Shown here: piece by piece, positions 50,567-64,000 of the stretch
How positions within the stretch are numbered: the first letter of the stretch is position 1
How the letters are laid out: each line of letters starts with the position of its first letter
Origin: Fusobacterium varium
Lineage (GTDB): Bacteria; Fusobacteriota; Fusobacteriia; Fusobacteriales; Fusobacteriaceae
DNA: 64,000 bases
NCBI GenBank assembly: GCA_900637705.1
Contig: LR134390.1
Location: forward strand, 1,240,001-1,304,000
Direction: 5' to 3'
Made by a program: the position numbers and the translations under genes
The notes under the pieces: model-generated
Told to the model about the DNA's origin: nothing
Database searches by the model: none
What the model saw: the letters and a program-made list of their open reading frames with translations, nothing else

Positions 50567-51250
50567 GTGCTAAAGATATACGACGATATAATGGGTAAGA
50601 CAAATTCTAGTTTTGCATATAAAATATTAAAAGAAAACATACTTAGACTTGATTTAAAGCCGGGAGAAGAATTGCGTGAAATTGATTTGTTTCAATCTCT
50701 TAATATGAGCCGTACACCAATTAGAGAGGCACTTATTCTTTTGAAACATGATGGCTTAATAGAAACTCTTCCTCAAAGTGGAACTTTTGTTACTAAAATA
50801 GATAAAGAAAAATTTGAAGATGGAAAAATGTTAAGAATTTGTGTAGAAGAAAAAATGATACAGTTGGCTTGTGATACTTTTTCAGATGAATATCTTAAAA
50901 AATTAGAAGATAACCTCAGAAAGCAAAAATTTATCCTTGATACAACTAGAGATTATGTGGAGTTTCATAAACTAGATGTAGAATTCCATCAAATGATATT
51001 TGAAGGGGTAGGGTATAAGGATTTATTTAAAGTAACTACAGATAATTTTTTTGATTACCAGAGAGTTAGAGTTTTGAATTCATCAAATAAGATAAAAGAT
51101 AATTTTATTCAAGAAAGCCATTTAAAAATATTAGATGCTATTAAAAATAAAAGGAAAGATAGAGTTCATGAACTGCTTAATGAACATTTCTCAAGATTAT
51201 CAGCAAAATTAGGATATTTTATTGAAGAATATCCATTTTATTTTAAATAA
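50567..51250 (+). CDS. GntR family transcriptional regulator (FadR/FCD subfamily)
   Basis: N-terminal winged helix (PGEELREIDLFQSLNMSRTPIREALILL within residues 25-55, quoted in part) and a C-terminal all-helical FCD ligand domain (residues ~80-220). The FCD metal-site pattern is present in part: DVEFHQMIF and a later HLKILDAI and LNEHF. FCD regulators usually sense carboxylates such as sugar acids, amino acids or fatty acyl compounds. Start is a GTG after AAGAGGG. No obvious target gene is next to it; it stands between thiE and a divergent membrane protein. The effector is unknown. Confidence 0.85.
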   Translation: MLKIYDDIMGKTNSSFAYKILKENILRLDLKPGEELREIDLFQSLNMSRTPIREALILLKHDGLIETLPQSGTFVTKIDKEKFEDGKMLRICVEEKMIQLACDTFSDEYLKKLEDNLRKQKFILDTTRDYVEFHKLDVEFHQMIFEGVGYKDLFKVTTDNFFDYQRVRVLNSSNKIKDNFIQESHLKILDAIKNKRKDRVHELLNEHFSRLSAKLGYFIEEYPFYFK

Positions 51251-52814: not shown

Positions 52815-52846
52815 GATGGGTTTGATTAACCTATCTTTTTTATTTT
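52815..52846 (+). terminator. second, stronger terminator ahead of the hdr-flx promoter
   Basis: GATGGGTT and AACCTATC pair around a five-base loop (one G-T pair), followed by six T. Confidence 0.75.
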
Positions 52847-53136: not shown

Positions 53137-53907
53137 ATGAAATTTAGCTATTATCCTGGTTGTACTTTAAAAACTAAAGCACAAGACCTTGAGAAATATG
53201 CCTTAGATTCAGCTGCTGCTCTAGGTGTAGAATTAGAAGAGCAGAAGGATTGGCAATGCTGTGGAGCTGTATTTCCATTAGGATCAGATGAAATTGCTAC
53301 AAAGCTTTCTTCAGTGAGAAGTTTAGCAGCTTCTTATGCTAAGGGAGAGAAACTTGTGACTATATGTTCTGCATGTCATCACGTAATCAAAAGAACAAAT
53401 GAAGAATTAAAATCTAATGAAGATATGAGAAGAAAAGTTAATAACTATCTTCAATTAGAAAATAACTACTCAGGGGAAGGTGAAGTAATTCATTACCTTG
53501 AAATGTTAAGAGATGAAATAGGATTTGACAAAATAGCAGAAAAAGTTGTGAAGCCTCTTAACCGTAAAATAGCTGCTTATTATGGTTGTATGCTTTTAAA
53601 ACCTAAAAAAGCAATGAACTTTGATGATCCAGAAAATCCATCAATAATAGAGAATTTTATAAAAGCACTTGGAGGAACTCCAGTATTTTACCCATATAGA
53701 ACAGAATGCTGTGGAGCTTATCTCGCTGTAAATAATAAAGAACTTACAGAAAAAATGAGCAGTAAGATAATAAAATCAGCTTTAGATAATGGAGCAGAGG
53801 AAATTGTTACAGCTTGTCCTTTGTGCAAGTATAACTTGGAACTTAAAGATACAGCATCTGTAAGTTATTTTTCAGAGATTTTAGCTGAAGCTTTAGGAGT
53901 TAAGTAA
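53137..53907 (+). CDS. hdrB: heterodisulfide reductase subunit B homologue
   Basis: Catalytic subunit of HdrABC-type complexes, which carries two noncubane [4Fe-4S] clusters. Both CCG motifs are complete: C9, C41-C42, C77, C80 (31 and 34 residues apart) and C151, C191-C192, C227, C230 (39 and 34 residues apart). In methanogens this site reduces the CoM-CoB disulfide; in bacteria with FlxABCD the true disulfide or acceptor is uncertain. It begins the operon, with AGGGAGGGAAGAG before the ATG, and is followed by hdrC and hdrA. At 256 aa it is a normal length for the soluble bacterial type. Confidence 0.92.
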   Translation: MKFSYYPGCTLKTKAQDLEKYALDSAAALGVELEEQKDWQCCGAVFPLGSDEIATKLSSVRSLAASYAKGEKLVTICSACHHVIKRTNEELKSNEDMRRKVNNYLQLENNYSGEGEVIHYLEMLRDEIGFDKIAEKVVKPLNRKIAAYYGCMLLKPKKAMNFDDPENPSIIENFIKALGGTPVFYPYRTECCGAYLAVNNKELTEKMSSKIIKSALDNGAEEIVTACPLCKYNLELKDTASVSYFSEILAEALGVK

Positions 53908-53934
53908 AATATTTCTAAAGACAGGGAGGAAAAA

Positions 53935-54348
53935 TTGGAAAGAGATAAAGTAGTTTTCAATAAAGATAGAAAAGATATACTTACAATAGAGGAAATCAGT
54001 AAGGAAAAAACAGCAAACTGCATGCAGTGTGGAAAGTGTTCTGCTGGTTGTCCTGCTGCAGATGATATGGATATACTTCCTCATCAGGTAATAAGACATT
54101 TGCAAATGGGAGATGTAGAAACAATAAAGAATAGTAAAACTATATGGACTTGTGCTTCTTGCTTTACTTGTGCTTCTCGTTGCCCTAGAAATGTAGACCT
54201 TTGTAAGTTGATGGAAGCAGTTCGTTTAACTATTGTAAGAAAAAAAGGAAACAGTAAATTGCTTCCTGAAGATGTACCAGAAATAATGTCGGATAAAAAA
54301 ATGCCACAGCAAGCTATTGTTAGTGCATTTCGTAAATATAGTAAATAA
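53935..54348 (+). CDS. hdrC: heterodisulfide reductase subunit C homologue
   Basis: Ferredoxin-like subunit with two [4Fe-4S] clusters that link HdrA to HdrB. The motifs are CMQCGKCSAGCP (residue ~29) and CASCFTCASRCPRN (~residue 74). Start is a TTG directly after GGGAGGAAAAA; no ATG is better placed. At 137 aa it is compact. It lies 27 bases after hdrB and 24 before hdrA. Confidence 0.92.
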   Translation: MERDKVVFNKDRKDILTIEEISKEKTANCMQCGKCSAGCPAADDMDILPHQVIRHLQMGDVETIKNSKTIWTCASCFTCASRCPRNVDLCKLMEAVRLTIVRKKGNSKLLPEDVPEIMSDKKMPQQAIVSAFRKYSK

Positions 54349-54372
54349 ACTGTTTTGTGAGGAGGAAAGAGA

Positions 54373-56358
54373 TTGCAAAGAGTTGGAGTTTTTGTTTGTT
54401 GGTGTGGGAATAATATAGCAGGTACTGTAGATGTAGAAAGAGTATCTGAAGTAGCAAAGGATATTCCTGGAGTAGTTTATTCAACAAATTATCAATATAT
54501 GTGCTCTGAGATAGGGCAAAATTTATTAAAGGACGCTGTAAAAGAACATAATTTAGATAGAGTAGTAGTTGCTTCATGCTCGCCTAGAATGCATGAAACA
54601 ACATTTCGTAATGCAGCTGCAAAGGCTGGATTAAATCCATATCTTGTTGAGATAGCTAATATAAGAGAGCATTGTTCATGGGTGCATAAAGATAAAGAGC
54701 AAGGGACAGAAAAAGCGATATCCCTTGTAAAAGCAGCTGTAGCAAAGGCTATTCTTAATGCTCCATTGACAGCAGGAGAAAGTGGAGTAGAAAAAAGAGC
54801 ATTAGTAATTGGAGGGGGAATTGCTGGTATACAGACAGCTCTTGATATAGCTGATGCTGGATTCAAAGTAGATATAGTTGAGAAACAGCCAAGTATAGGT
54901 GGAAAAATGGCTCAGTTGGATAAGACATTTCCTACACTTGATTGTTCAGCATGTATTTTAACACCTAAAATGGTTGATGCATCAATGCACCCAAATATTA
55001 CTTTGCATACATACAGTGAAATAGAAGCTGTAAATGGTTATGTAGGAAACTTTACAGTATCTATAAAGAAAAAAGCACGTTATGTGGATATGGACAAATG
55101 TACAGGTTGTGGAATCTGTGTTGAAAAATGTCCTTCAAGAAAAGCAGGAAATGAATTTGAAGAAAATCTTACTAAAAGAGGAGCTATATACAAGGCGTTT
55201 GCACAGGCAGTACCAAATGTACCAGTGATTGACAGTACTCAATGTATAAAAATGGCAACTGGAAAATGTGGAATCTGTGAAAAACTTTGTATGGCAAAAG
55301 CAATAGATTTTACTCAAAAAGATGAAATTATTGAAGAAAAATATGGAGCAATAGTAGTTGCCACTGGATATGATCTTATCAATCTTGAAAAATTAGGAGA
55401 ATACAATTATTCTCACCCTAATGTAATAACTTCATTGGAATTTGAAAGACTTACAAATGCAGCAGGACCTACTCATGGAAAATTCCTTAAACCTTCAGAT
55501 CACACAAAACCTAAGAAAGTAGTTTTTGTACAATGTGTTGGTTCAAGAGATACAAGTGACAGAGGAAAACCTTACTGTTCAAAAATATGTTGTATGTATA
55601 CAGCAAAACATGCAATGCTTCTTAGAGATAAATATCCAGATATTGAGGCATATGTATTCTATATAGATGTAAGAACTCCAGGTAAAAACTTTGATGAGTT
55701 CCAAAGAAGAGCAGTTGAAGAATATGGAGTTCAATATATCAAAGGTATGGTAGGAAAAGTATTTCCAGAGGGTGATAAGCTGATGGTAAATGGTGTAGAT
55801 GCACTTACTGGACAGACAGTTGTTATAGATGCTGATATGGTAGTGTTGGCAGCAGCTACAAAAGCTAAAGATGATGCTGTAGCTTTAAAAAGAAAACTTA
55901 ATATCAGTACAGATACAAACAACTTCTTCACAGAGGCACACCCAAAGCTTAAACCAGTAGAAACAGCTTCAGCTGGAATATATCTGGCAGGAGCTTGTCA
56001 AGGACCTAAAGATATTCCTGAAACGGTAGCACAAGCCAGTGCAGCAGCAGCAAAAGCAATAATTCTACTTTGCAAAGATAAGCTTGTAAATAATCCTTGT
56101 GTATCTTCTGTAGACACTGATTTATGCAGTGGCTGTGGTCAATGTGCACAGATGTGCCCATATGATGCTATCTCTTTAAAAATGACTGATATTAGAGATC
56201 ATGGAAAAGTTGTAAGAAGACTGATTGCAACAGTAAATGATGCACTATGTCAAGGCTGTGGAGGTTGTACAGTATCTTGCCGTCCAGGAGCAATTGATCT
56301 TAGAGGATTCTCAAATAAACAAATTATGGCGGAGGTAGATGCAATATGTCGTCTGTAG
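54373..56358 (+). CDS. hdrA: heterodisulfide reductase subunit A homologue (flavin-bifurcating)
   Basis: The FAD-containing core of the complex and the likely bifurcating site. 661 residues: an N-terminal domain with VGVFVCWCGNNIAG and MCSEIGQ, the FAD-binding GGGIAGIQTALDIADAG (~residue 140) followed by EKQPSIGGKMAQ and DCSACILTPKM, an inserted ferredoxin (CTGCGICVEKCP, ~240), a flavoprotein domain, and a C-terminal dicluster ferredoxin (CSGCGQCAQMCP and CQGCGGCTVSC). Start is TTG with GGAGGAAAGA upstream. No fused MvhD-type domain is present; that is supplied by the next gene, which overlaps its end. Confidence 0.94.
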   Translation: MQRVGVFVCWCGNNIAGTVDVERVSEVAKDIPGVVYSTNYQYMCSEIGQNLLKDAVKEHNLDRVVVASCSPRMHETTFRNAAAKAGLNPYLVEIANIREHCSWVHKDKEQGTEKAISLVKAAVAKAILNAPLTAGESGVEKRALVIGGGIAGIQTALDIADAGFKVDIVEKQPSIGGKMAQLDKTFPTLDCSACILTPKMVDASMHPNITLHTYSEIEAVNGYVGNFTVSIKKKARYVDMDKCTGCGICVEKCPSRKAGNEFEENLTKRGAIYKAFAQAVPNVPVIDSTQCIKMATGKCGICEKLCMAKAIDFTQKDEIIEEKYGAIVVATGYDLINLEKLGEYNYSHPNVITSLEFERLTNAAGPTHGKFLKPSDHTKPKKVVFVQCVGSRDTSDRGKPYCSKICCMYTAKHAMLLRDKYPDIEAYVFYIDVRTPGKNFDEFQRRAVEEYGVQYIKGMVGKVFPEGDKLMVNGVDALTGQTVVIDADMVVLAAATKAKDDAVALKRKLNISTDTNNFFTEAHPKLKPVETASAGIYLAGACQGPKDIPETVAQASAAAAKAIILLCKDKLVNNPCVSSVDTDLCSGCGQCAQMCPYDAISLKMTDIRDHGKVVRRLIATVNDALCQGCGGCTVSCRPGAIDLRGFSNKQIMAEVDAICRL

Positions 56359-56795
56359 AAAAAATAGAAAAAGAAGAATTCAAACCTTTGATAGTTGCAT
56401 TCTGCTGTAACTGGTGCAGTTATGCAGGAGCAGACTTAGCAGGGACAAGCAGATTAAACTACCCTGCCAATGTAAAAATAATTCGTGTTCCATGCTCTTG
56501 CAGAGTAAATACTAACTTTATAATCCGTGCTTTCCAAAAAGGTGCAGATGGAGTAGTTATTGCAGGTTGCCACCCGGGAGATTGTCATTATTCTACAGGA
56601 AATTATTATACAAGACGTCGTTTCTCTGTATTTATTAATCTTCTTGAGTATATGGGAATAGAAAAAGAGCGTTTTAAAATAGACTGGATATCAGCTGCAG
56701 AAGCGAATAAATTTGCTACAGTAATGAATGAAGTATTGGAAAACGTTCATAGACTTGGACCAAATAAAAAGTTGAGGGATGGTAGATGGAAATAA
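56346..56795 (+). CDS. flxD: MvhD/FlxD-like [2Fe-2S] electron-transfer subunit
   Basis: A 149-residue protein of the MvhD/FlpD family, which hands electrons from an oxidoreductase to HdrA. The cysteine set is clear: FCCNWCSYAGAD near residue 20, VPCSCRVN near ~49, and GCHPGDCHY near ~76. The ATG lies inside the last codons of hdrA, and its own end overlaps the next gene, so the genes are translationally coupled. FlxD is the counterpart in the FlxABCD-HdrABC system described from Desulfovibrio vulgaris. Confidence 0.9.
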   Translation: MSSVEKIEKEEFKPLIVAFCCNWCSYAGADLAGTSRLNYPANVKIIRVPCSCRVNTNFIIRAFQKGADGVVIAGCHPGDCHYSTGNYYTRRRFSVFINLLEYMGIEKERFKIDWISAAEANKFATVMNEVLENVHRLGPNKKLRDGRWK

Positions 56796-57661
56796 TGACT
56801 GAAAAAATTAGAGAAATAGCTAAAGAAGCACTTTCAAGTAATAAAGTCCAAATGGTAATTGGTTGGGAAAAGGGAGATTTCTCATTTGAATCTATACCAG
56901 TTTTCATAACAAATTCAGAAGATACAGATAAACTTGTATTAGATGCTTACTGTATAAACAACTTGAGCAAATACCTTATGGAGCAAACACAGAAGTATGA
57001 AAAAATTGGAATATTTTTAAAAGGATGCGATTCATTAGGATTAAACCAGCTGTTAAAAGACCATAGAATAGACAGAGAAAAAGTTTATGTATGGGGAGTT
57101 CCTTGTAATGGAATGGTTGATTCTAAAAATAATAAATATACAAAGTGTGAAACTTGCCTTCACCCTACTCCAGTAGTATATGATGAATTGTTAGGAGAGG
57201 AGATAACTTCTAAAGCTGATCCTGAAGAGAGATTCAGAGAAGTGAAAATACTTGAAAATATGACTGCAGATGAAAGATACGAATTCTGGAGCAATGAATT
57301 TTCAAGATGTATCAGATGTAATGCATGCCGTAATGTATGTCCAGCATGCAGCTGTGTAAAATGTGTATTTGATAATGATGATATAAATGTTTTAGGAAAA
57401 GCTAATGTAGCTCCTGAAAATGGATTCTTCCACTTGACAAGAGCCTATCATATAGCTGGAAACTGTGTAGATTGTGGAGAATGTGCAAGAATATGTCCTG
57501 CTCATATCAGACTTGACCTATTAAACAGAAAAATAATAAAAGATATTAACGAAACTTATGGAGCATGGGAAGCAGGACTTGATTCTGAAACTCCAGCACC
57601 ATTGGTATCATACACATTGGAAGATAAAGATAACTTTGCAGTAAAAAAAGGAGGTAAGTAA
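56786..57661 (+). CDS. flxC: FlxC-like iron-sulfur protein
   Basis: 291 residues. The N-terminal ~170 residues look like the FrhB/AsrA-adjacent domain (IFLKGCDSLGLNQLL, then VWGVPCNGMVD, CETCLHPTP). The rest is a ferredoxin-type module with CIRCNACRNVCPACSCVKC near residue 180 and CVDCGECARICPAH near ~225. It probably relays electrons between FlxA and FlxD-HdrA. The symbol is assigned by operon position in the Flx-Hdr cluster rather than by a decisive motif. It overlaps flxD by ten bases and flxB by one base. Confidence 0.8.
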   Translation: MEIMTEKIREIAKEALSSNKVQMVIGWEKGDFSFESIPVFITNSEDTDKLVLDAYCINNLSKYLMEQTQKYEKIGIFLKGCDSLGLNQLLKDHRIDREKVYVWGVPCNGMVDSKNNKYTKCETCLHPTPVVYDELLGEEITSKADPEERFREVKILENMTADERYEFWSNEFSRCIRCNACRNVCPACSCVKCVFDNDDINVLGKANVAPENGFFHLTRAYHIAGNCVDCGECARICPAHIRLDLLNRKIIKDINETYGAWEAGLDSETPAPLVSYTLEDKDNFAVKKGGK

Positions 57662-58688
57662 TGAAAAAAGTATTAAAAAGCAGACTGCCTGAATTATGGG
57701 AAGCTATTAATAAAAATTTTGATTTATTTCTTCCTGTGGAAAATGGTACTCTTATAAATTTTGGAAGCTATACAGCTGATAAAACTGTAAGACTTGATGT
57801 ACTTAAAACAAATTCATCTGTAAAAGAATTTGTTTTTCCTCAAACTGAAACATATTTAAAATTTAAAAATACAAGGAAAAAACTTGAACTTACACCAGTA
57901 AATGTAGAGGGAAGAGATTATGTGCTTTTTGGTGTAAGGAACTGTGATGCAGCAAGTTTTGAAATAATGGACAACATATTCTTGAGAGAGCCAGTGGATA
58001 CATATTACAGAGCCCATAGAGAAAAAGGAATTATAGTAACTATGGCATGTAACTCACCTGAAGAAACTTGCTTCTGTAGTGCCTTTGGAATAGATGCTTC
58101 TGAAGCTTCATCAGCTTCTGACGTAGTCACTTGGGATATGGGAGATTATATTTTATGGGAAGCAAAAACTGAAAAAGGAGAAAAATTTACAGATGCTGTA
58201 TCAGCTATACTTGAAGATGCTGAAGATGTAAATGCTCTAGGGATATTGAAAAAAGAAATCAAAGAAAAAATGGAATCACTTCCTCTAAAAGAACTTGATC
58301 CTAAAAAAATAACTAAAGAACAACAGGAAATTTTTGATATGGAAGACTTCTGGGGAGATATTAGTAAAAAATGTCTGGCATGTGGATCTTGTACATTTGT
58401 ATGTCCAACTTGTCACTGTTATGATGTAAAAGATTATGATGGAGGAAATGCTGGAGAGAGATACAGATGCTGGGATTCTTGTATGATATCAGACTTTACT
58501 CGTATGGCTCATGGAAATCCAAGAACTAGTCAATTGCAGAGAGTAAGACAAAGATTCATGCACAAACTTGTATATTATCCAAAAATCATGAGGGAATGTA
58601 TTCTTGTGTAGGTTGTGGAAGATGTGTTGAGAAATGTCCAGTAGGATTAAATATAGTAAGAGTAATAAAAAGACTGGGGGAGGAATAA
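57661..58688 (+). CDS. flxB: FlxB-like iron-sulfur subunit (one frameshift)
   Basis: Related to the iron-sulfur subunits AsrA/HydB of anaerobic sulfite reductase and sulfhydrogenases. The N-terminal part (YVLFGVRNCDAASFEIMD) is followed by CFCSAFGIDA, and the first C-terminal cluster is CLACGSCTFVCPTCHCYD. One A added to the five-A run 58581-58585 restores GMYSCVGCGRCVEKCPVGLN, the second cluster, giving ~342 aa. Without it the last cluster is lost, so this is almost certainly a sequencing error. It starts inside the flxC stop and ends two bases before flxA. Confidence 0.85.
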
Positions 58689-58689
58689 T

Positions 58690-59544
58690 ATGAGTTGTGG
58701 TTGTAGTTGTCATGACAATGATCCTTTAATGCCTAAAGTGGCGATAATAACAAATATCAGAAGAGATACTCCTGATGTTACTACATTTAGAATAGAGAGT
58801 CCAGAAGGAGGAAAACCTTTTGATTTTATGCCAGGTCAATGTGCTATGCTGTCAGTTCCTCCAATAGGAGAAGCAATATTTTCTATAACTTCATCTCCTA
58901 CTGTAAAAGACTATATGGAGTGCAGTATAAAAAAATGTGGGATAGTAACTGACTATATACACCAGCTTGAAGAAGGAGCAGAAATTGGTATAAGAGGTCC
59001 ATATGGAAATAATTTTCCTGTAGAAGAAGCTGATGTATTAAAAGGTAAAGATCTATTATTTATAGCTGGAGGTATAGGACTTGCTCCTCTTCGTTCAGTT
59101 ATCAATTATGTAATGGATAATAGAGAAAATTATGGGAAAGTGGATATTGTTTATGGTTCACGTACTCCAGATGATCTAGTACATCAAAATGATATTTTCA
59201 AAGTATGGCCTGCTCAGAAAGATACAAATGTGCATCTGACTGTAGATAGAGAATTTGAAGGTTGGGACGGACATGTTGGATTTGTACCAAATTATGTAAA
59301 AGAGCTTGGGCTTGACAATAACAAAGTTGCTCTTGTATGTGGGCCTCCAATCATGATTAAATTTGTACTTCAAGGTTTGGAAGAAATAGGATTTAAAAAA
59401 GAGCAGGTATTCACTACATTGGAGCTTAAAATGAAGTGTGGTGTAGGAAAATGTGGACGTTGCAATATTGGGGATAAATATGTCTGCAAAGATGGACCTG
59501 TATTTAGATGTGATGAAATTTTAGAACTTCCAAATGAATATTAA
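58690..59544 (+). CDS. flxA: FlxA-like NAD(P)H-binding flavoprotein
   Basis: The pyridine-nucleotide entry point of the complex, 284 aa. It is a ferredoxin-reductase-type protein like the gamma subunit of sulfhydrogenase. The FAD-binding stretch is MPGQCAMLSVP and IGIRGPYGNNFP, the NAD site is LLFIAGGIGLAPLRSV (~residue 120) with VCGPPIMIKF, and the C-terminal [2Fe-2S] set is KCGVGKCGRCNIG plus a later Cys. An odd MSCGCSC Cys cluster opens the protein. NADH is the expected donor, as in characterised Flx-Hdr clusters. Confidence 0.9.
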   Translation: MSCGCSCHDNDPLMPKVAIITNIRRDTPDVTTFRIESPEGGKPFDFMPGQCAMLSVPPIGEAIFSITSSPTVKDYMECSIKKCGIVTDYIHQLEEGAEIGIRGPYGNNFPVEEADVLKGKDLLFIAGGIGLAPLRSVINYVMDNRENYGKVDIVYGSRTPDDLVHQNDIFKVWPAQKDTNVHLTVDREFEGWDGHVGFVPNYVKELGLDNNKVALVCGPPIMIKFVLQGLEEIGFKKEQVFTTLELKMKCGVGKCGRCNIGDKYVCKDGPVFRCDEILELPNEY

Positions 59545-59576
59545 TATTGAGAAAAAATCATAGCAAGGAGAGATAA

Positions 59577-60257
59577 ATGGCTGAAAAGAAAATGGTTGAT
59601 ATATATATATTAGGTAAAAAATATACTGTACCTTCAACTTTAACAATAATGGATTCTATGGAATATGCAGGATACCAGCTTATCAGAAGCTGTGGGTGCA
59701 GATCTGGATTCTGTGGAGCATGTGCCACTGTATATAGAGTAAAAGGTGAAAGTGAACTTAAAGTAACACTAGCATGTCAAAGTAAAGTGGAAGATGGAAT
59801 GTATCTTACTCAGATTCCTTTTTTCCCGGGAAAGAAAGCAGCATATGACATGGATAAAGTAGAAGCATCAGCTGATACTATGGTAGAAAATTATCCTGAA
59901 ATCTATAAATGTATAGGTTGTAATGCCTGTACAAAAGGTTGTTCTCAAGGAATTAATGTAATGCAATATATTGCATATGCTCAAAGAGGAGAATTTGAGA
60001 AATGTGCTCACGAATCATTTGACTGTGTAGGGTGTGGAATATGTGCATCAAAATGTCCTGCTGGAATAACTCACTATAATGTAGGACTTCTGGCTCGTCG
60101 TATTACTGGAAAACATATAGCTCCTAAGAGTAAACATCTGATTGAAAGAGTTGAAGAAATCAATGCTGGAAAATTAGATGCAGAATTAGATGAAATGATG
60201 AACAAAAGTATAGAGGAACTTAAAGATCTATACAATCATAGAGATATCACTAAATAG
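59577..60257 (+). CDS. fumarate reductase-type iron-sulfur subunit (soluble)
   Basis: 226 residues. A plant-type [2Fe-2S] domain is at the N-terminus (SCGCRSGFCGACATVY, Cys ligands near 38-50, plus CQS). A ferredoxin-like domain follows with CIGCNACTKGCSQG (~residue 118) and CVGCGICASKCPAG (~148), i.e. two [4Fe-4S] clusters rather than the usual [4Fe-4S]/[3Fe-4S] pair of membrane FrdB. No anchor subunit is encoded near it, so the enzyme is presumably soluble and takes electrons from Hdr-Flx or a ferredoxin instead of quinone. It starts 32 bases after flxA and lies 22 before the flavoprotein gene. Confidence 0.85.
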   Translation: MAEKKMVDIYILGKKYTVPSTLTIMDSMEYAGYQLIRSCGCRSGFCGACATVYRVKGESELKVTLACQSKVEDGMYLTQIPFFPGKKAAYDMDKVEASADTMVENYPEIYKCIGCNACTKGCSQGINVMQYIAYAQRGEFEKCAHESFDCVGCGICASKCPAGITHYNVGLLARRITGKHIAPKSKHLIERVEEINAGKLDAELDEMMNKSIEELKDLYNHRDITK

Positions 60258-60279
60258 TAGGAATGGAGGTTTTTAATAG

Positions 60280-61890
60280 ATGTATACGGCAGAAATGAGA
60301 GAATTAATAAAAAAGGTTGAGGCAACTCGTCCAAGTAGAATGGGGCATGATTTTCCAAGATTATCTCCAGAAGCTAAATTGGAAATATTAAAAAATAATC
60401 ACCCAGACTATGTAGAAAGTGGATTCAGAGCACTTAATCTTGGAGTAAATGCAGGGGATAAAGTACCTTTAGAACTAGCTGACCTTATAGAAGCAAAGAG
60501 CAGAGTGGAACTAGACAAAGTAAATCTTAATAAAATAGACTATGATGTAGATGTTCTTATCATTGGAGCAGGGGGAGCAGGAGCTGCTGCTGCACTGGAA
60601 GCACATAATGCAGGAGCTAAAGTAATGATAGCTACTAAACTTCGTTTTGGAGATGCTAACACTATGATGGCAGAGGGAGGAATTCAAGCTGCTGATAAAC
60701 CAGATGATTCACCAGCAAGACATTATCTTGATGTATTAGGTGGAGGACATTTCACAAATATTCCTGAACTAGCAAAAGCATTAGTACATGATGCACCAGG
60801 AGCCATTCAATGGCTTAACGAATTTGGAGTAATGTTTGATAAAGAAGAAGATGGAACTATGCATACACAGCATGGTGGAGGAACTTCAAGAAAGAGAATG
60901 CATGCTGCTGCTGACTACAGTGGTGCAGAAATAATGCGTGTACTTAGAGATGAAGTAAGAAATAAAGGTGTAGAGGTTATAGAATTTTCACCAGCTGTAG
61001 AGCTTATAAAAGATACAGAAGGAAAAGTAGCAGGAGCAGTATTGTACAATCTTGAAACTAAAGAATATTCAGTAGCAAAAGCTAAAACTGTAATACTTGC
61101 CACTGGAGGAGCAGGAAGACTTCATTATCATGGATTCCCTACTTCAAACCACTATGGGGCAACAGCAGATGGATTGATATTAGGATACAGAGTTGGGGCA
61201 GAACTTGCTTTTGCTGATACTATTCAATACCACCCTACAGGAGTTGCATTCCCATCTCAAATATTTGGAGCTTTAGTTACTGAAAAAGTGAGAGGGCTTG
61301 GAGCGACACCTCTTAACATAGATGGTGAGCAGTTTGTATATCATTTGGAAACAAGAGATATAGAAGCTTCAGCTATTATCAATGAATGTAATGTAAAAGG
61401 AAAAGGAATACCTACACCAACTGGAGAAGTTGGAGTATGGCTGGATACTCCATTAATCGATATGATACATGGAGAAGGAACATTGGAAAAAAGACTTCCT
61501 GCAATGTTTAGAATGTTTGAAAAATTTGGAATAGATATGAGAAAAGAGCCAATCCTTATTTATCCAACACTTCATTATCAAAATGGAGGACTTCTAATCA
61601 ATGACAAAGGGGAAACTAAAATAGAAAATCTGTTTGTTGCTGGAGAATGTGCTGGAGGTATCCATGGAAGAAACAGACTTATGGGGAACTCACTATTGGA
61701 TATAATAGTATTTGGACGTAGAGCAGGTAAAAATGCTGGAGCTAAGAGTAAAGATGTTGAAGTAAAAGATCTTACACTAAATCATATAGCAGAATATCAT
61801 GAAGCATTGAAGGCAAGTGGAGTAGAAACTGATAGAGTATCTCCTATGCTACTTCCTCGTTACAGACATGGTGCAGATAAACAAGATTAA
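60280..61890 (+). CDS. fumarate reductase/succinate dehydrogenase-type flavoprotein subunit
   Basis: 536 residues. The FAD domain begins after an ~85-residue N-terminal extension with LIIGAGGAGAAAALEAHNAGA, then ANTMMAEGGIQA. The flavin-attachment-like HGGGTSRKR, the substrate-binding FADTIQYHPTGV, and the distal HGRNRLMGNSLLDIIVFGRRA with the catalytic Arg region are all present. It belongs with soluble FrdA/TfrA/L-aspartate oxidase relatives. Fumarate is the default substrate, but this fold also reduces other enoates (urocanate, cinnamate-type acids, methacrylate). The downstream DcuC gene favours a C4-dicarboxylate. Ribosome binding site GGAGG. Confidence 0.9.
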   Translation: MYTAEMRELIKKVEATRPSRMGHDFPRLSPEAKLEILKNNHPDYVESGFRALNLGVNAGDKVPLELADLIEAKSRVELDKVNLNKIDYDVDVLIIGAGGAGAAAALEAHNAGAKVMIATKLRFGDANTMMAEGGIQAADKPDDSPARHYLDVLGGGHFTNIPELAKALVHDAPGAIQWLNEFGVMFDKEEDGTMHTQHGGGTSRKRMHAAADYSGAEIMRVLRDEVRNKGVEVIEFSPAVELIKDTEGKVAGAVLYNLETKEYSVAKAKTVILATGGAGRLHYHGFPTSNHYGATADGLILGYRVGAELAFADTIQYHPTGVAFPSQIFGALVTEKVRGLGATPLNIDGEQFVYHLETRDIEASAIINECNVKGKGIPTPTGEVGVWLDTPLIDMIHGEGTLEKRLPAMFRMFEKFGIDMRKEPILIYPTLHYQNGGLLINDKGETKIENLFVAGECAGGIHGRNRLMGNSLLDIIVFGRRAGKNAGAKSKDVEVKDLTLNHIAEYHEALKASGVETDRVSPMLLPRYRHGADKQD

Positions 61891-61909
61891 TATATAAAGG
61901 GGGAATAAA

Positions 61910-63277
61910 ATGAATTTTATAGTTGCAATTTTGGTTGTGGTGGCAGTTGGATATCTTATTGTAAAAAAATATTATGCACAGGGTGTTCTACTGCTTGGGG
62001 GGGCTGCACTTTTACTGGCTGCTGTCATTTTTAATGGAACTCCTATTCTTGCAAAAGGAGGAACAGGGTCACTTTATCTTGATGTATTTGCTCAATTGAA
62101 GGCTAATTTTATTAAAACTACAGGAAGCTTAGGAATAGCTATCATGATAGTGTCAGCATTTGCTAAATATATGGACCATATAGGAGCAAGTAAAGCTCTT
62201 GTAAAGGTTGCTATTAAACCTTTGCAGAAACTTAATTCTCCATATATAGTTCTTGCACTATCATATGTAGTAGGACAAATACTTAATATATTTATACCAA
62301 GTGCATCTGGACTTGGAGTTCTTTTAATGGTAACAGTGTATCCTATAGTTGTATCTCTTGGTGTATCACCTCTGGCAGCTACAGCAGTAATAGGAACATC
62401 AGCTTGTCTGGATTTGGGACCAGCATCAGGAAATGCTGTTTTGGCTTCTAAAACTGCTGGGATAGATGCAGCATTATACTTTGTTGACTATCAAGTGCCA
62501 GTGGCAATAGTTACAGTTATTGTTATTACAGCTATTCATTATTTTGTGAATAAATCTATGGATAGAAAAATGGACTTGGCTGAAAAAGCTAAAGAGGAAG
62601 CAGAATTTGAAAAAGAAATGAATGTAGAAGGAAAAGTTCCAGGACTCTATGCTCTTTTACCTATTATTCCATTGATTATAATACTTGTATTCAGTCCATT
62701 AACTGGAAGTAAAATCAGAGTAGATGTTGTGGAAGCTATGTTTATGAGTATCGCTTTAAGTATGTTTATTGAAGGTATCAGAAGAAAAGCTTTCAAAAGC
62801 ACTCTTTCTGAGTTGAAAATAGTATTCACAGCAATGGGAAGTCAGTTTGCAAATGTTATCACTTTGATTGTAGCTGGAGAATTCTTTGCTCTTGGACTTA
62901 CAAAAATAGGAGTTATATCTGCTCTTATTGATTCAACTAAGTCAGCAGGACTTGGACCTCAACCAATGATTTTGGTAATGACTGCAATAATAGCACTTTC
63001 TTCTATCCTTATGGGATCAGGAAATGCACCATTCTTCGCTTTTGCTGCATTAGCACCAGCAGTGGCAGCATCAGTTGATCTTAATCCAATTGTTATGTTA
63101 ATGCCAATGCAACTGGCTGCAGGAATAGCAAGAAGTATTTCTCCTATTACAGCAGTTATTGTTGCAGTTGCAGGTATATCAGGGGTATCTCCATTTGATG
63201 TTGTAAAAAGAACAGCAGCTCCAATGGTTGGTGGTCTTATAGCAGTTCTTATCACTAATATGATTCTATTTGGATAA
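61910..63277 (+). CDS. dcuC: C4-dicarboxylate carrier of the DcuC family
   Basis: Inner-membrane protein of 455 aa with about 12 helices in the DcuC/ion-transporter superfamily pattern. Features include NIFIPSASGLGVLLMVTVYP and the later SSILMGSGNAPFFAFAALAP, characteristic of DcuC. DcuC exchanges or exports succinate and fumarate in anaerobic E. coli. It lies 19 bases after the flavoprotein gene and belongs to the same unit, consistent with moving substrate or product for the reductase. Ribosome binding site AAAGGGGGAA. Confidence 0.85.
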   Translation: MNFIVAILVVVAVGYLIVKKYYAQGVLLLGGAALLLAAVIFNGTPILAKGGTGSLYLDVFAQLKANFIKTTGSLGIAIMIVSAFAKYMDHIGASKALVKVAIKPLQKLNSPYIVLALSYVVGQILNIFIPSASGLGVLLMVTVYPIVVSLGVSPLAATAVIGTSACLDLGPASGNAVLASKTAGIDAALYFVDYQVPVAIVTVIVITAIHYFVNKSMDRKMDLAEKAKEEAEFEKEMNVEGKVPGLYALLPIIPLIIILVFSPLTGSKIRVDVVEAMFMSIALSMFIEGIRRKAFKSTLSELKIVFTAMGSQFANVITLIVAGEFFALGLTKIGVISALIDSTKSAGLGPQPMILVMTAIIALSSILMGSGNAPFFAFAALAPAVAASVDLNPIVMLMPMQLAAGIARSISPITAVIVAVAGISGVSPFDVVKRTAAPMVGGLIAVLITNMILFG

Positions 63278-63305
63278 TATTTAATTAATAAGGGGGATAC
63301 TAAAA

Positions 63306-64000
63306 ATGGATATGAAAAAATATTTAGCAGATTTAGAAAAGTTAGTAAATATTGATTGTGGAAGTAATGTGCCTGAGGGAGTACAAGAAGTTACAGAATT
63401 TTTCAAGAAAGAGCTTGAAAATGAATGGATAATTAAAGTATATCCTCAGAATGATGGAAAAAATCCTGTACTGGTTGCTAAAAATAGAGATAGTGAAGAT
63501 ATAGACCTTATGTTTCTAGGGCATAATGATACAGTATTTCCTAAAGGAACTGTGCCAGCATGGTCATATAAGCTTGAAGGAAATATAGCAACAGGAGCAG
63601 GGGTATATGATATGAAATCTGGAGTACTTTCTATGATAGAAGTTGCTAAAGAATTTAAAAATGAAGATATCACTATTGCCCTTGTAATGAATACAGATGA
63701 GGAAATCAGTTCTCGTTATTCAAGACCTGTAATAGAAGAAATCGGAAAAAATGCAAAATATGCAATGGTATTTGAGCCAGCTCGTAAAAATGGAAATGCT
63801 GTAATAGAAAGAAAAGGACTTGTAAAATATAAAGTTGAGTTCTTTGGAAAATCTTCTCATGCAGGAAACTATCCACAAGAGGGAATCAATGCTATCCTTG
63901 AAGCTTCTCGTTGGGTAACTGAGATATCTAAACTTCATAACTGGGATATAAAGAACTCACTTAATGTGGGACTTATAGAAGGTGGAAGTGGAGTTAATAT
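63306..64000 (+). CDS. M20 family metallopeptidase (partial, runs off the window)
   Basis: The ATG at 63306 follows AAGGGGGATAC; 231 codons are open to the edge. Zinc-ligand motifs of the M20 (carboxypeptidase G2/ArgE/DapE) family are present: GHNDTVFPKG near residue 76, GVYDMKSG near ~102, and TDEEISS near ~135 with the catalytic Glu. The RKGLVKYKVEFFGKSSHAGNYP segment is the start of the dimerisation lid domain with its His. It likely releases a carboxylate such as glutamate or an amino acid from a small conjugate. It lies 28 bases after dcuC in the same operon. Confidence 0.85.
   Translation, partial: MDMKKYLADLEKLVNIDCGSNVPEGVQEVTEFFKKELENEWIIKVYPQNDGKNPVLVAKNRDSEDIDLMFLGHNDTVFPKGTVPAWSYKLEGNIATGAGVYDMKSGVLSMIEVAKEFKNEDITIALVMNTDEEISSRYSRPVIEEIGKNAKYAMVFEPARKNGNAVIERKGLVKYKVEFFGKSSHAGNYPQEGINAILEASRWVTEISKLHNWDIKNSLNVGLIEGGSGVN

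Follow-up and report, generated by a model that had tools for sequence, protein, structure and literature searches.

A hdrBCA-flxDCBA-frdBA gene block in Fusobacterium varium and its relatives: a predicted soluble, bifurcating NADH:fumarate, ferredoxin oxidoreductase

What might a bacterium gain from a complete Flx-Hdr electron-transfer set whose genes run straight into those of a fumarate reductase-type enzyme? We addressed this question in a stretch of 64,000 bases from Fusobacterium varium (the window: bases 1240001–1304000 of contig LR134390.1, assembly GCA_900637705.1, a genome of 3.30 Mb in one contig). Here hdrBCA-flxDCBA, a frdB/frdA-type pair, dcuC and an M20 peptidase gene are all open and lie head to tail on the plus strand. 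An earlier note on this DNA had proposed a soluble, quinone-free system that sends NADH electrons to an enoate while reducing ferredoxin. Our analysis makes it probable that hdrBCA-flxDCBA-frdBA encodes a soluble, bifurcating NADH:fumarate, ferredoxin oxidoreductase operating without quinone. This proposal is favored by gene order, by co-occurrence within the phylum and by the resemblance between the HdrA and FrdA trees, as well as by a genome in which UbiA and Sdh_cyt have no match. The acceptor can now be narrowed from an enoate to fumarate. The genes, in window coordinates, are as follows.

53137–53907, plus strand: hdrB, 256 residues with two CCG motifs (PF02754, PDB HdrB chains)
53935–54348, plus strand: hdrC, two four-Cys [4Fe-4S] motifs (named from partial matches and place)
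54373–56358, plus strand: hdrA, putative FAD-bifurcating subunit carrying two ferredoxin domains, one inserted and one C-terminal
56346–56795, plus strand: flxD, MvhD/FlpD family (PF02662, 186.8 bits)
56786–57661, plus strand: flxC, iron-sulfur subunit (Fer4 families; named from place and conserved order)
57661–58611, plus strand: flxB, iron-sulfur subunit (PF17179, 87.6 bits)
58690–59544, plus strand: flxA, FAD/NAD(P)H-binding subunit (PF00175, PF00970, PF10418)
59577–60257, plus strand: frdB-type iron-sulfur subunit, 226 residues (general ferredoxin families, partial matches and place)
60280–61890, plus strand: frdA-type flavoprotein, 536 residues (PF00890, 244.7 bits)
61910–63277, plus strand: dcuC, C4-dicarboxylate carrier (NF037994, TIGR00771), a lineage-specific neighbor
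63306–64000 and beyond, with the stop at window coordinate 64421, plus strand: M20 metallopeptidase (PF01546/PF07687), a lineage-specific neighbor

The earlier description of this layout holds in each respect. All seven hdr and flx genes are open on the plus strand, and the gaps that follow the flx set (flxA/frdB/frdA/dcuC/M20), said to be 33 bases or less, measure 32, 22, 19 and 28 bases. The reductase pair, the C4-dicarboxylate carrier and the M20 peptidase are all present, and no membrane-anchor-like gene was found within the hdr-flx-frd-dcuC-M20 block. The flxB–flxA gap is 78 bases, taking the listed ATG as the flxA start.

Family searches identified HdrB, HdrA, FlxD, FlxB, FlxA, the FAD_binding_2 flavoprotein and DcuC, while HdrC, FlxC and FrdB matched general ferredoxin families and owe their names to place and partial matches. 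For HdrA, HdrB, FlxD, the flavoprotein and DcuC the scores lie well beyond chance. HdrB matches PF02754 in two stretches (77.4 bits), with a best E-value of 2.3e-39 against PDB HdrB chains. Both of its CCG (non-cubane cluster) motifs are full, as the note had stated, and their ten cysteines (C9/C41/C42/C77/C80 and C151/C191/C192/C227/C230) are invariant in all 42 aligned HdrB sequences, including that of the window. Across the genome, CCG matches at E ≤ 0.001 are confined to this one gene. HdrC scores 64 bits against TIGR03290, under the cut-off of 160, and its eight cysteines are kept in 39 of 39 aligned sequences. HdrA aligns over its whole length (residues 3–659) with methanogen HdrA 5odc_A at 717 bits, and reaches 811 bits against NF040770, under the cut-off of 1100. 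Eight cysteines of its C-terminal ferredoxin domain and the four of the second cluster motif in the inserted ferredoxin domain are conserved in 42 of 42 aligned sequences; both ferredoxin domains of HdrA are retained, fitting the need for two electron exits. Residues 291–306 (window 55243–55290), within that second motif, include five residues more than 5odc.

The FrdA-type flavoprotein was aligned with E. coli FrdA, SdhA and NadB and with 86 relatives. This placed H318, E335, R338, R359, H432 and R466 at the catalytic dicarboxylate positions, equivalent to His232, Glu245, Arg248, Arg287, His355 and Arg390 of E. coli FrdA, which bind and protonate the dicarboxylate in that enzyme. All six are invariant in 86/86 relatives. 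They also occur in E. coli NadB and therefore indicate a dicarboxylate enzyme without singling out fumarate. The position of the covalent-FAD His44 of E. coli FrdA is occupied by Asn in all 86 relatives (N127 in the window protein). The protein carries an N-terminal extension of about 84 residues ahead of the first E. coli FrdA residue, and 70 residues follow the last catalytic Arg, compared with 211 in E. coli FrdA. Its structure model (mean predicted local distance difference test score, pLDDT, 80.1; predicted template modeling score 0.85) best matches the FrdA of E. coli quinol:fumarate reductase, 1kf6.

FrdB contains the [2Fe-2S] cysteines C41, C46, C49 and C67 plus two complete four-Cys [4Fe-4S] motifs, with all twelve cluster cysteines invariant in 40 aligned sequences. 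Classical fumarate reductases carry a [3Fe-4S] cluster; given the two complete motifs, this cluster has probably been replaced by a [4Fe-4S] cluster here. The FrdB model has a mean pLDDT of 84.5 (52–62 over residues 31–50); its structural matches, all of them iron-sulfur subunits from other complexes at TM-scores near 0.3, were uninformative.

Three known enzyme types were considered for the pair and set aside. The methanogen thiol:fumarate reductase TfrAB is soluble, and TfrA is the top NCBIfam model of FrdA, matched at E ≤ 1e-40 by all 34 FrdA family members scanned. The window protein, however, scores 348 bits against a cut-off of 718, reaches no listed cut-off, and its match stops at position 425 of 546 in the profile. 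FrdA also differs in its N-terminal extension, and FrdB, which resembles TfrB in part, has no match to the CCG domain (PF02754), a module found here in the separate HdrB. A quinol:fumarate reductase or succinate dehydrogenase would share the dicarboxylate residues, but the block has no anchor and the covalent-FAD His is Asn. Flavocytochrome c was rejected because the score against TIGR01813 (flavocytochrome c / urocanate reductase), 215.4 bits, lies below the cut-off of 285.45.

To place the block among its relatives, we compared 86 loci, comprising the best 80 of 162 flavoprotein matches in genome contigs plus nine near-relative loci, less three repeats. A locus was counted as linked when at least two flx/hdr genes lay on the same strand (hdrC not counted), and as truly separate when both flanks extended at least 7.5 kb without flx-hdr, the fetched flanks being at most 10–12 kb. 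In all 86 loci frdB lies upstream of frdA within 850 bases. By this definition 52 loci are linked; with two more whose contigs end inside the block (L044, with hdrB and hdrC, and L097, with flxD), flx/hdr genes adjoin frdBA in 54 of the 86. All seven flx/hdr genes are present in 38 loci, 35 of which show the exact hdrBCA-flxDCBA-frdBA order. In 14 loci flx-hdr stands apart from frdBA, and in 18 the flanks are too short to judge. Many gut Clostridia loci are near-copies, and the counts over the 86 loci are thus not independent events.

The link between flx/hdr and frd is kept in several different gene orders. Dethiobacter-type loci such as L043 read fumarase-malic enzyme-frdBA-hdrBCA-flxDCBA, and Chloroflexota loci (L080, L096, L097 and L101) show another order, with HdrC and HdrB fused in L080 and L096. 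These two loci (L080 3–9179, L096 3–10511) encode several HdrA-like proteins, FlxD, FlxC, the fused HdrC-HdrB and FrdBA, and neither yielded a FlxA or FlxB match. Family members that are not known pathogens include Propionigenium maris (L024), which carries the block, and Clostridium species adapted to cold. In the FrdA tree the window protein falls within a 45-row group, of which 44 are linked and one was not judged (Shimodaira–Hasegawa-like approximate likelihood-ratio test, SH-aLRT, 93). Both the FrdA and HdrA trees come from quick searches in which SH-aLRT is the sole measure of support, and the FrdA outgroup (E. coli FrdA, SdhA and NadB) has very long branches. Three FrdA-bearing contigs are labeled Desulfovibrio (L041, L044 and L070); as the FrdA tree puts L041 and L044 beside Dethiobacter, and L070 among Bacillota and Syntrophomonadaceae, these labels or bins of metagenome-assembled genomes are doubtful.

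Conservation centers on the nine genes of the hdr-flx-frd block; DcuC and M20 belong to particular lineages. Including these two as core parts was rejected, as they score above thresholds in only nine of the 86 loci, those of the window's genus and Cetobacterium. The M20 gene stands beside dcuC in 9/9 distinct dcuC-bearing loci, and in Cetobacterium it lies upstream of hdrB on the other strand. Its nearest models, hydrolase PRK07338 and glutamate carboxypeptidase, are both below cut-off, and no NCBIfam cut-off was reached.

Within Fusobacteriota, the two halves of the block occur together. We searched 98 genomes of the phylum, including that of the window, for FrdA (E ≤ 1e-150) and FlxD (E ≤ 1e-15). 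FrdA was found in 21 and FlxD in 22, both in the same 21 genomes, in every one of which flxA lies directly upstream of frdB. No genome among the 98 had FrdA without FlxD at these thresholds, and in the single FlxD-only genome (G092) the contig ends 168 bases past flxD. The association has a Fisher p of 1.7e-20 with kinship ignored; at genus level, each of the two genes is found in 5 of 29 genera.

Genes neighboring the block bear on its substrate. Neighbor types were assigned by Pfam on one example each and then by tblastn scoring of the other loci, with L094 and L057 frames also named by reading. They comprise class I fumarase alpha/beta, malic enzyme, a Lyase_1/FumaraseC_C protein, a lactate/malate dehydrogenase, and carriers of the Na_sulph_symp (DASS) and Asp-Al_Ex families. 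We presume the dehydrogenase to act on malate, given an Arg in the substrate loop. In 55/86 loci (26/52 linked, 29/34 others) one or more C4-acid enzyme genes lie on the same strand, and it is on this basis that an enoate narrows to fumarate. A class I fumarase alpha gene is near frdBA in 34 loci; the fumC and aspA queries cross-react, their 13 loci each being the identical 13. Of the 52 linked loci, 33 include a DASS, Asp-Al_Ex or DcuC carrier in either orientation, three carrier families filling one role. In gut Clostridia such as L094 the order mdh-fumC-hdrBCA-flxDCBA-frdBA-Asp-Al_Ex would amount to an oxaloacetate-to-succinate path plus a carrier gene. The DcuC of the window scores 403.9 bits against NF037994 (cut-off 100) and 370.4 against TIGR00771 (cut-off 187), and falls below two narrower equivalog models (623 and 513). 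No C4-enzyme gene was found in the block of the window's own genus, beside which stand only dcuC and M20; the F. varium genome has a fumarase gene and an aspartase-like one (658.8 bits, under its 681.2 cut-off) at other sites.

Thirteen of the loci (L048, L052, L055, L057, L059, L062, L067, L070, L071, L073, L074, L078 and L102) carry frdBA, fumarase alpha/beta and malic enzyme on one strand. The same strand also holds genes for a CoA-transferase III and, named by reading, 2-oxoacid:ferredoxin oxidoreductase-like proteins. These gene sets may represent a partial reductive C4/tricarboxylic acid branch.

The genome context fits operation without quinone. No UbiA-family prenyltransferase match was found in the genome, while all 14 control genomes were positive, making menaquinone synthesis by MenA unlikely. 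The Sdh_cyt anchor (PF01127) is likewise absent from the genome, with 7 of the 14 controls positive; the FrdC/FrdD anchor models were not part of this search. An RnfC gene is present (609.9 bits).

How could such a complex operate? NADH would pass a hydride to FAD on FlxA, and electrons would travel through FlxB, FlxC and FlxD to the HdrA flavin, where each pair would split. Ferredoxin would receive the low-potential electron by way of the C-terminal ferredoxin domain of HdrA. Its high-potential partner would cross the inserted ferredoxin domain, then HdrC, both non-cubane HdrB clusters and the FrdB clusters to reach the FAD of FrdA, where fumarate would be reduced to succinate. The net reaction would be 2 NADH + fumarate + oxidised ferredoxin → 2 NAD+ + succinate + reduced ferredoxin; Rnf would convert reduced ferredoxin into an ion gradient, and DcuC would transport C4-dicarboxylates. 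With potentials of −320 mV (NADH), +33 mV (fumarate) and −420 mV (ferredoxin), taken from PMC5861303, the standard free energy is about −49 kJ/mol, or −33 kJ/mol with ferredoxin at −500 mV, our own lower bound. Complex formation, bifurcation, the HdrB-to-FrdB route, the direction and ion pumping are steps that we infer from the sequences.

Docking of FrdB on HdrC/HdrB has its best sequence evidence in the archaeal TfrB profile (488 positions). FrdB matches positions 19–162 (33 bits), HdrC 126–220 (27 bits) and HdrB 263–464 (45 bits); these matches are weak and far under the cut-off of 385, and the FrdB and HdrC stretches overlap. Each protein thus corresponds to part of TfrB, a Rosetta-stone pattern which suggests that these modules touch.

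Several observations weigh against this proposal. Hdr homologues alone are no proof of bifurcation, as PMC5861303 cautions, and for this reason we treat the bifurcation step as predicted. The ten invariant HdrB cysteines would also fit a disulfide as the real acceptor, and in 9 of the 52 linked loci, some of them at contig ends, neither a C4 enzyme nor a carrier was found among the queries. Fumarate could also be reduced outside the cytoplasm of F. varium by flavocytochrome-c-like reductases (L105, L106, L107 and L111), which have signal-like N-termini. The 14 truly separate loci display the separation of frdBA from hdr-flx that the note had named as damaging to its reading. We tested 16 genomes without flx-hdr beside frdBA, covering 13 of these 14 loci and three with short flanks. 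In four (G042, G045, G051 and G052) there is only a more distant Flx-Hdr (FlxD 50–53%, HdrA 51–53%), which implies that FrdBA may have other electron donors; in these lineages the partnership would not be obligatory. G055 is ambiguous: a long-branch HdrA lies inside the clade described below, with FlxD at 62%, on a contig with no FlxC, FlxB or FlxA match, and a second, more distant set is present.

The remaining genomes soften this objection. FlxD adjoins HdrA in all 16, and 11 hold a hdr-flx set elsewhere (seven complete, four cut by contig ends). In the quick tree, HdrA from these 11 sets falls in a single clade (SH-aLRT 98) that also takes in 40 of the 41 linked HdrA. In two of the genomes, G041 and G056, HdrA and FrdA both fall within Dethiobacter-type linked groups, with modest support (82 and 85). 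Separation was seen, and most of the genomes tested hold a matching hdr-flx set at another site.

Two of the distant sets were read frame by frame, L157 (1–7918, of G045) and L163 (4227–12660, a second set in G041), and in both hdrA follows EtfB- and EtfA-like genes. Each run encodes a TfrB-like (HdrC-HdrB) protein, EtfB-like and EtfA-like proteins, HdrA, FlxD, FlxC, FlxB and FlxA, a different Flx cluster that brings EtfBA genes into an operon of the Flx-Hdr type. Family matches for this EtfBA-Flx-Hdr cluster were tested in L163 only, the first protein being cut in L157.

Four other explanations compete with a bifurcating NADH:fumarate, ferredoxin oxidoreductase. The conserved cysteines of HdrB could serve a bacterial thiol:fumarate reductase, in which Flx-Hdr bifurcates to ferredoxin and an HdrB disulfide, and the dithiol, or HdrB carrying it, feeds FrdBA. 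The methanogen TfrB profile, covering FrdB-like and HdrB-like modules, agrees with this arrangement as well. FrdB itself, however, lacks the thiol-oxidising CCG domain; no thiol-carrier gene was recognised among the neighboring window frames, where no search was aimed at one; and in the fused HdrC-HdrB of L080 and L096 the first CCG unit reads as lacking its CxxC ending. We regard this thiol relay as unlikely; the disulfide shared with HdrB, which the note had offered as an option, is at most conceivable, given the fully conserved double CCG motif. Still less likely is that Flx-Hdr and FrdBA are separate enzymes on a shared transcript, the former serving a disulfide and the latter drawing on ferredoxin, flavodoxin or another donor. 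The separate loci and the four distant-only genomes, with the ambiguous one, speak for such independence, but it sits poorly with the co-occurrence across the 98 genomes, with a link preserved in several gene orders, and with the 11 unlinked genomes whose HdrA belongs to the Frd-associated clade.

The complex might also run in reverse, or reversibly, oxidising succinate with NAD+ at the expense of reduced ferredoxin (confurcation). Hdr-Flx confurcation has been assumed for D. vulgaris fermentation (PMC10920352), and the block is carried by P. maris, deposited under the strain name 10succ1. This direction would be uphill by 33–49 kJ/mol under standard conditions, and the neighboring enzymes fit fumarate supply. 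In E. coli FrdA, loss of the covalent-FAD His hurts succinate oxidation more than fumarate reduction, and this His is lost in every relative aligned. We place reversal below both preceding alternatives, as improbable. The lowest probability goes to another enoate (urocanate, an acrylate or itaconate) as acceptor. The versatility of the flavoprotein superfamily and the lack of a C4-enzyme gene in the block of the window's genus leave room for this idea, against which stand the invariant dicarboxylate residues (with their roles in E. coli FrdA), the same-strand C4-acid enzymes of other loci and a DcuC above its C4-dicarboxylate cut-offs.

The surroundings of the block add some detail. A terminator-like hairpin with a T run (window 52815–52835) lies between an upstream lipoprotein-like gene (180 residues, named by reading) and hdrB, consistent with an operon start at hdrB. 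A scan for consensus promoters gave 47 hits where 54.5 were expected, no better than chance, and had no role in defining the operon. A GntR/FCD regulator gene at window 50567–51250 lies upstream of hdrB, and likewise in L016; in L020 (62% identical) it lies 294 bases before hdrB, and in L023 (57%) it is convergent with M20. This recurring protein is a candidate regulator of the operon. Downstream of the M20 gene are aroE-, aroQ- and formate-tetrahydrofolate ligase-like genes, all three named by reading.

FAD_binding_2 matches number 18 genome-wide. L105 and L106 (genome 1053811–1056962) are neighboring flavocytochrome-c-like reductases with paralogues L107, L108 and L111, and may be candidate extracytoplasmic enoate reductases. 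L105 and L107 exceed the TIGR01813 cut-off, L111 is below it, and L106 and L108 were called by reading and weak FrdA similarity only. The scanned FAD_binding_2 proteins also include an L-aspartate oxidase (L109) and an unassigned one. The latter, L112 (1111–2637), is a 508-residue FAD protein with no evident signal, scoring 261 bits for TfrA and 255 for NadB, both under cut-off.

The pairing of the two halves in one operon, which the note had implied to be new, was already in print. According to PMC7282089, the ‘succinate operon’ of the heat-loving clostridium Pseudoclostridium thermosuccinogenes places Flx-Hdr genes beside those of a fumarate reductase encoded by two genes and of a putative succinate transporter. 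That source assumes fumarate reduction to be linked to ferredoxin reduction, citing a 2019 preprint (10.20944/preprints201912.0288.v1, its reference 15), and reports that expression rose roughly 4-fold when CO2 was low, with significance not reached for all subunits. By this published description the layout is the same, Flx-Hdr adjoining a two-gene soluble fumarate reductase. It differs in having a fumarate hydratase, whereas the F. varium block has dcuC and M20 and its fumarase elsewhere; among the 86 loci fumarase in the operon is variable, and we do not take it as defining.

Tubeworm symbionts and Thioflavicoccus have a flxABCD-hdrABC/tfrAB/korABCD cluster, for which direct Flx-Hdr electron transfer to tfrAB was proposed (PMC6315080, PMC11636981). 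As described there, it shares the mixing of flxABCD-hdrABC with a two-gene fumarate reductase but differs in the tfrAB name, in korABCD and other genes of the reductive tricarboxylic acid cycle, and in its autotrophic hosts. As a point against the proposal, tfrAB of Endoriftia falls outside the cluster's expression pattern (PMC11636981). Desulfovibrio vulgaris FlxABCD-HdrABC has the identical seven subunits by name, but the high-potential acceptor proposed there is DsrC, with no FrdBA (PMC10920352, describing Ramos 2015). In Moorella MetFV-HdrABC-MvhD, HdrABC is likewise tied to NADH and a non-disulfide terminal reductase, in that case methylene-tetrahydrofolate reductase (PMC5861303). The accessible parts of PMC12887300, PMC10920352 and PMC12578642 contain no coupling of Flx-Hdr to fumarate reductase, and those open-licence PMC titles and abstract starts that the searches listed announce neither a biochemical test of the proposal nor this operon in fusobacteria. 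The bifurcating fumarate reductase idea is thus not new, having been in print since 2019–2020. What the present analysis adds is breadth across loci, a substrate narrowed to fumarate, the co-occurrence in the phylum and the counter-examples.

We lean modestly towards a wider model of widespread fumarate respiration free of quinone, in which Fusobacteriota, Clostridia and relatives make a nine-subunit soluble complex whose HdrB clusters are a relay into FrdBA and not a disulfide reductase. The complex would conserve the energy of fumarate reduction in reduced ferredoxin for Rnf, and HdrBC would act as a general adaptor plugging different terminal reductases into one bifurcating module. If the proposal is true, fumarate reduction would be, like that of crotonyl-CoA, an energy step driven by bifurcation, and a defined non-disulfide acceptor could be assigned to the bacterial Flx-Hdr module, which often has no clear one. 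Succinate formation in quinone-less gut and sediment anaerobes could then yield an ion gradient, beyond the disposal of NADH.

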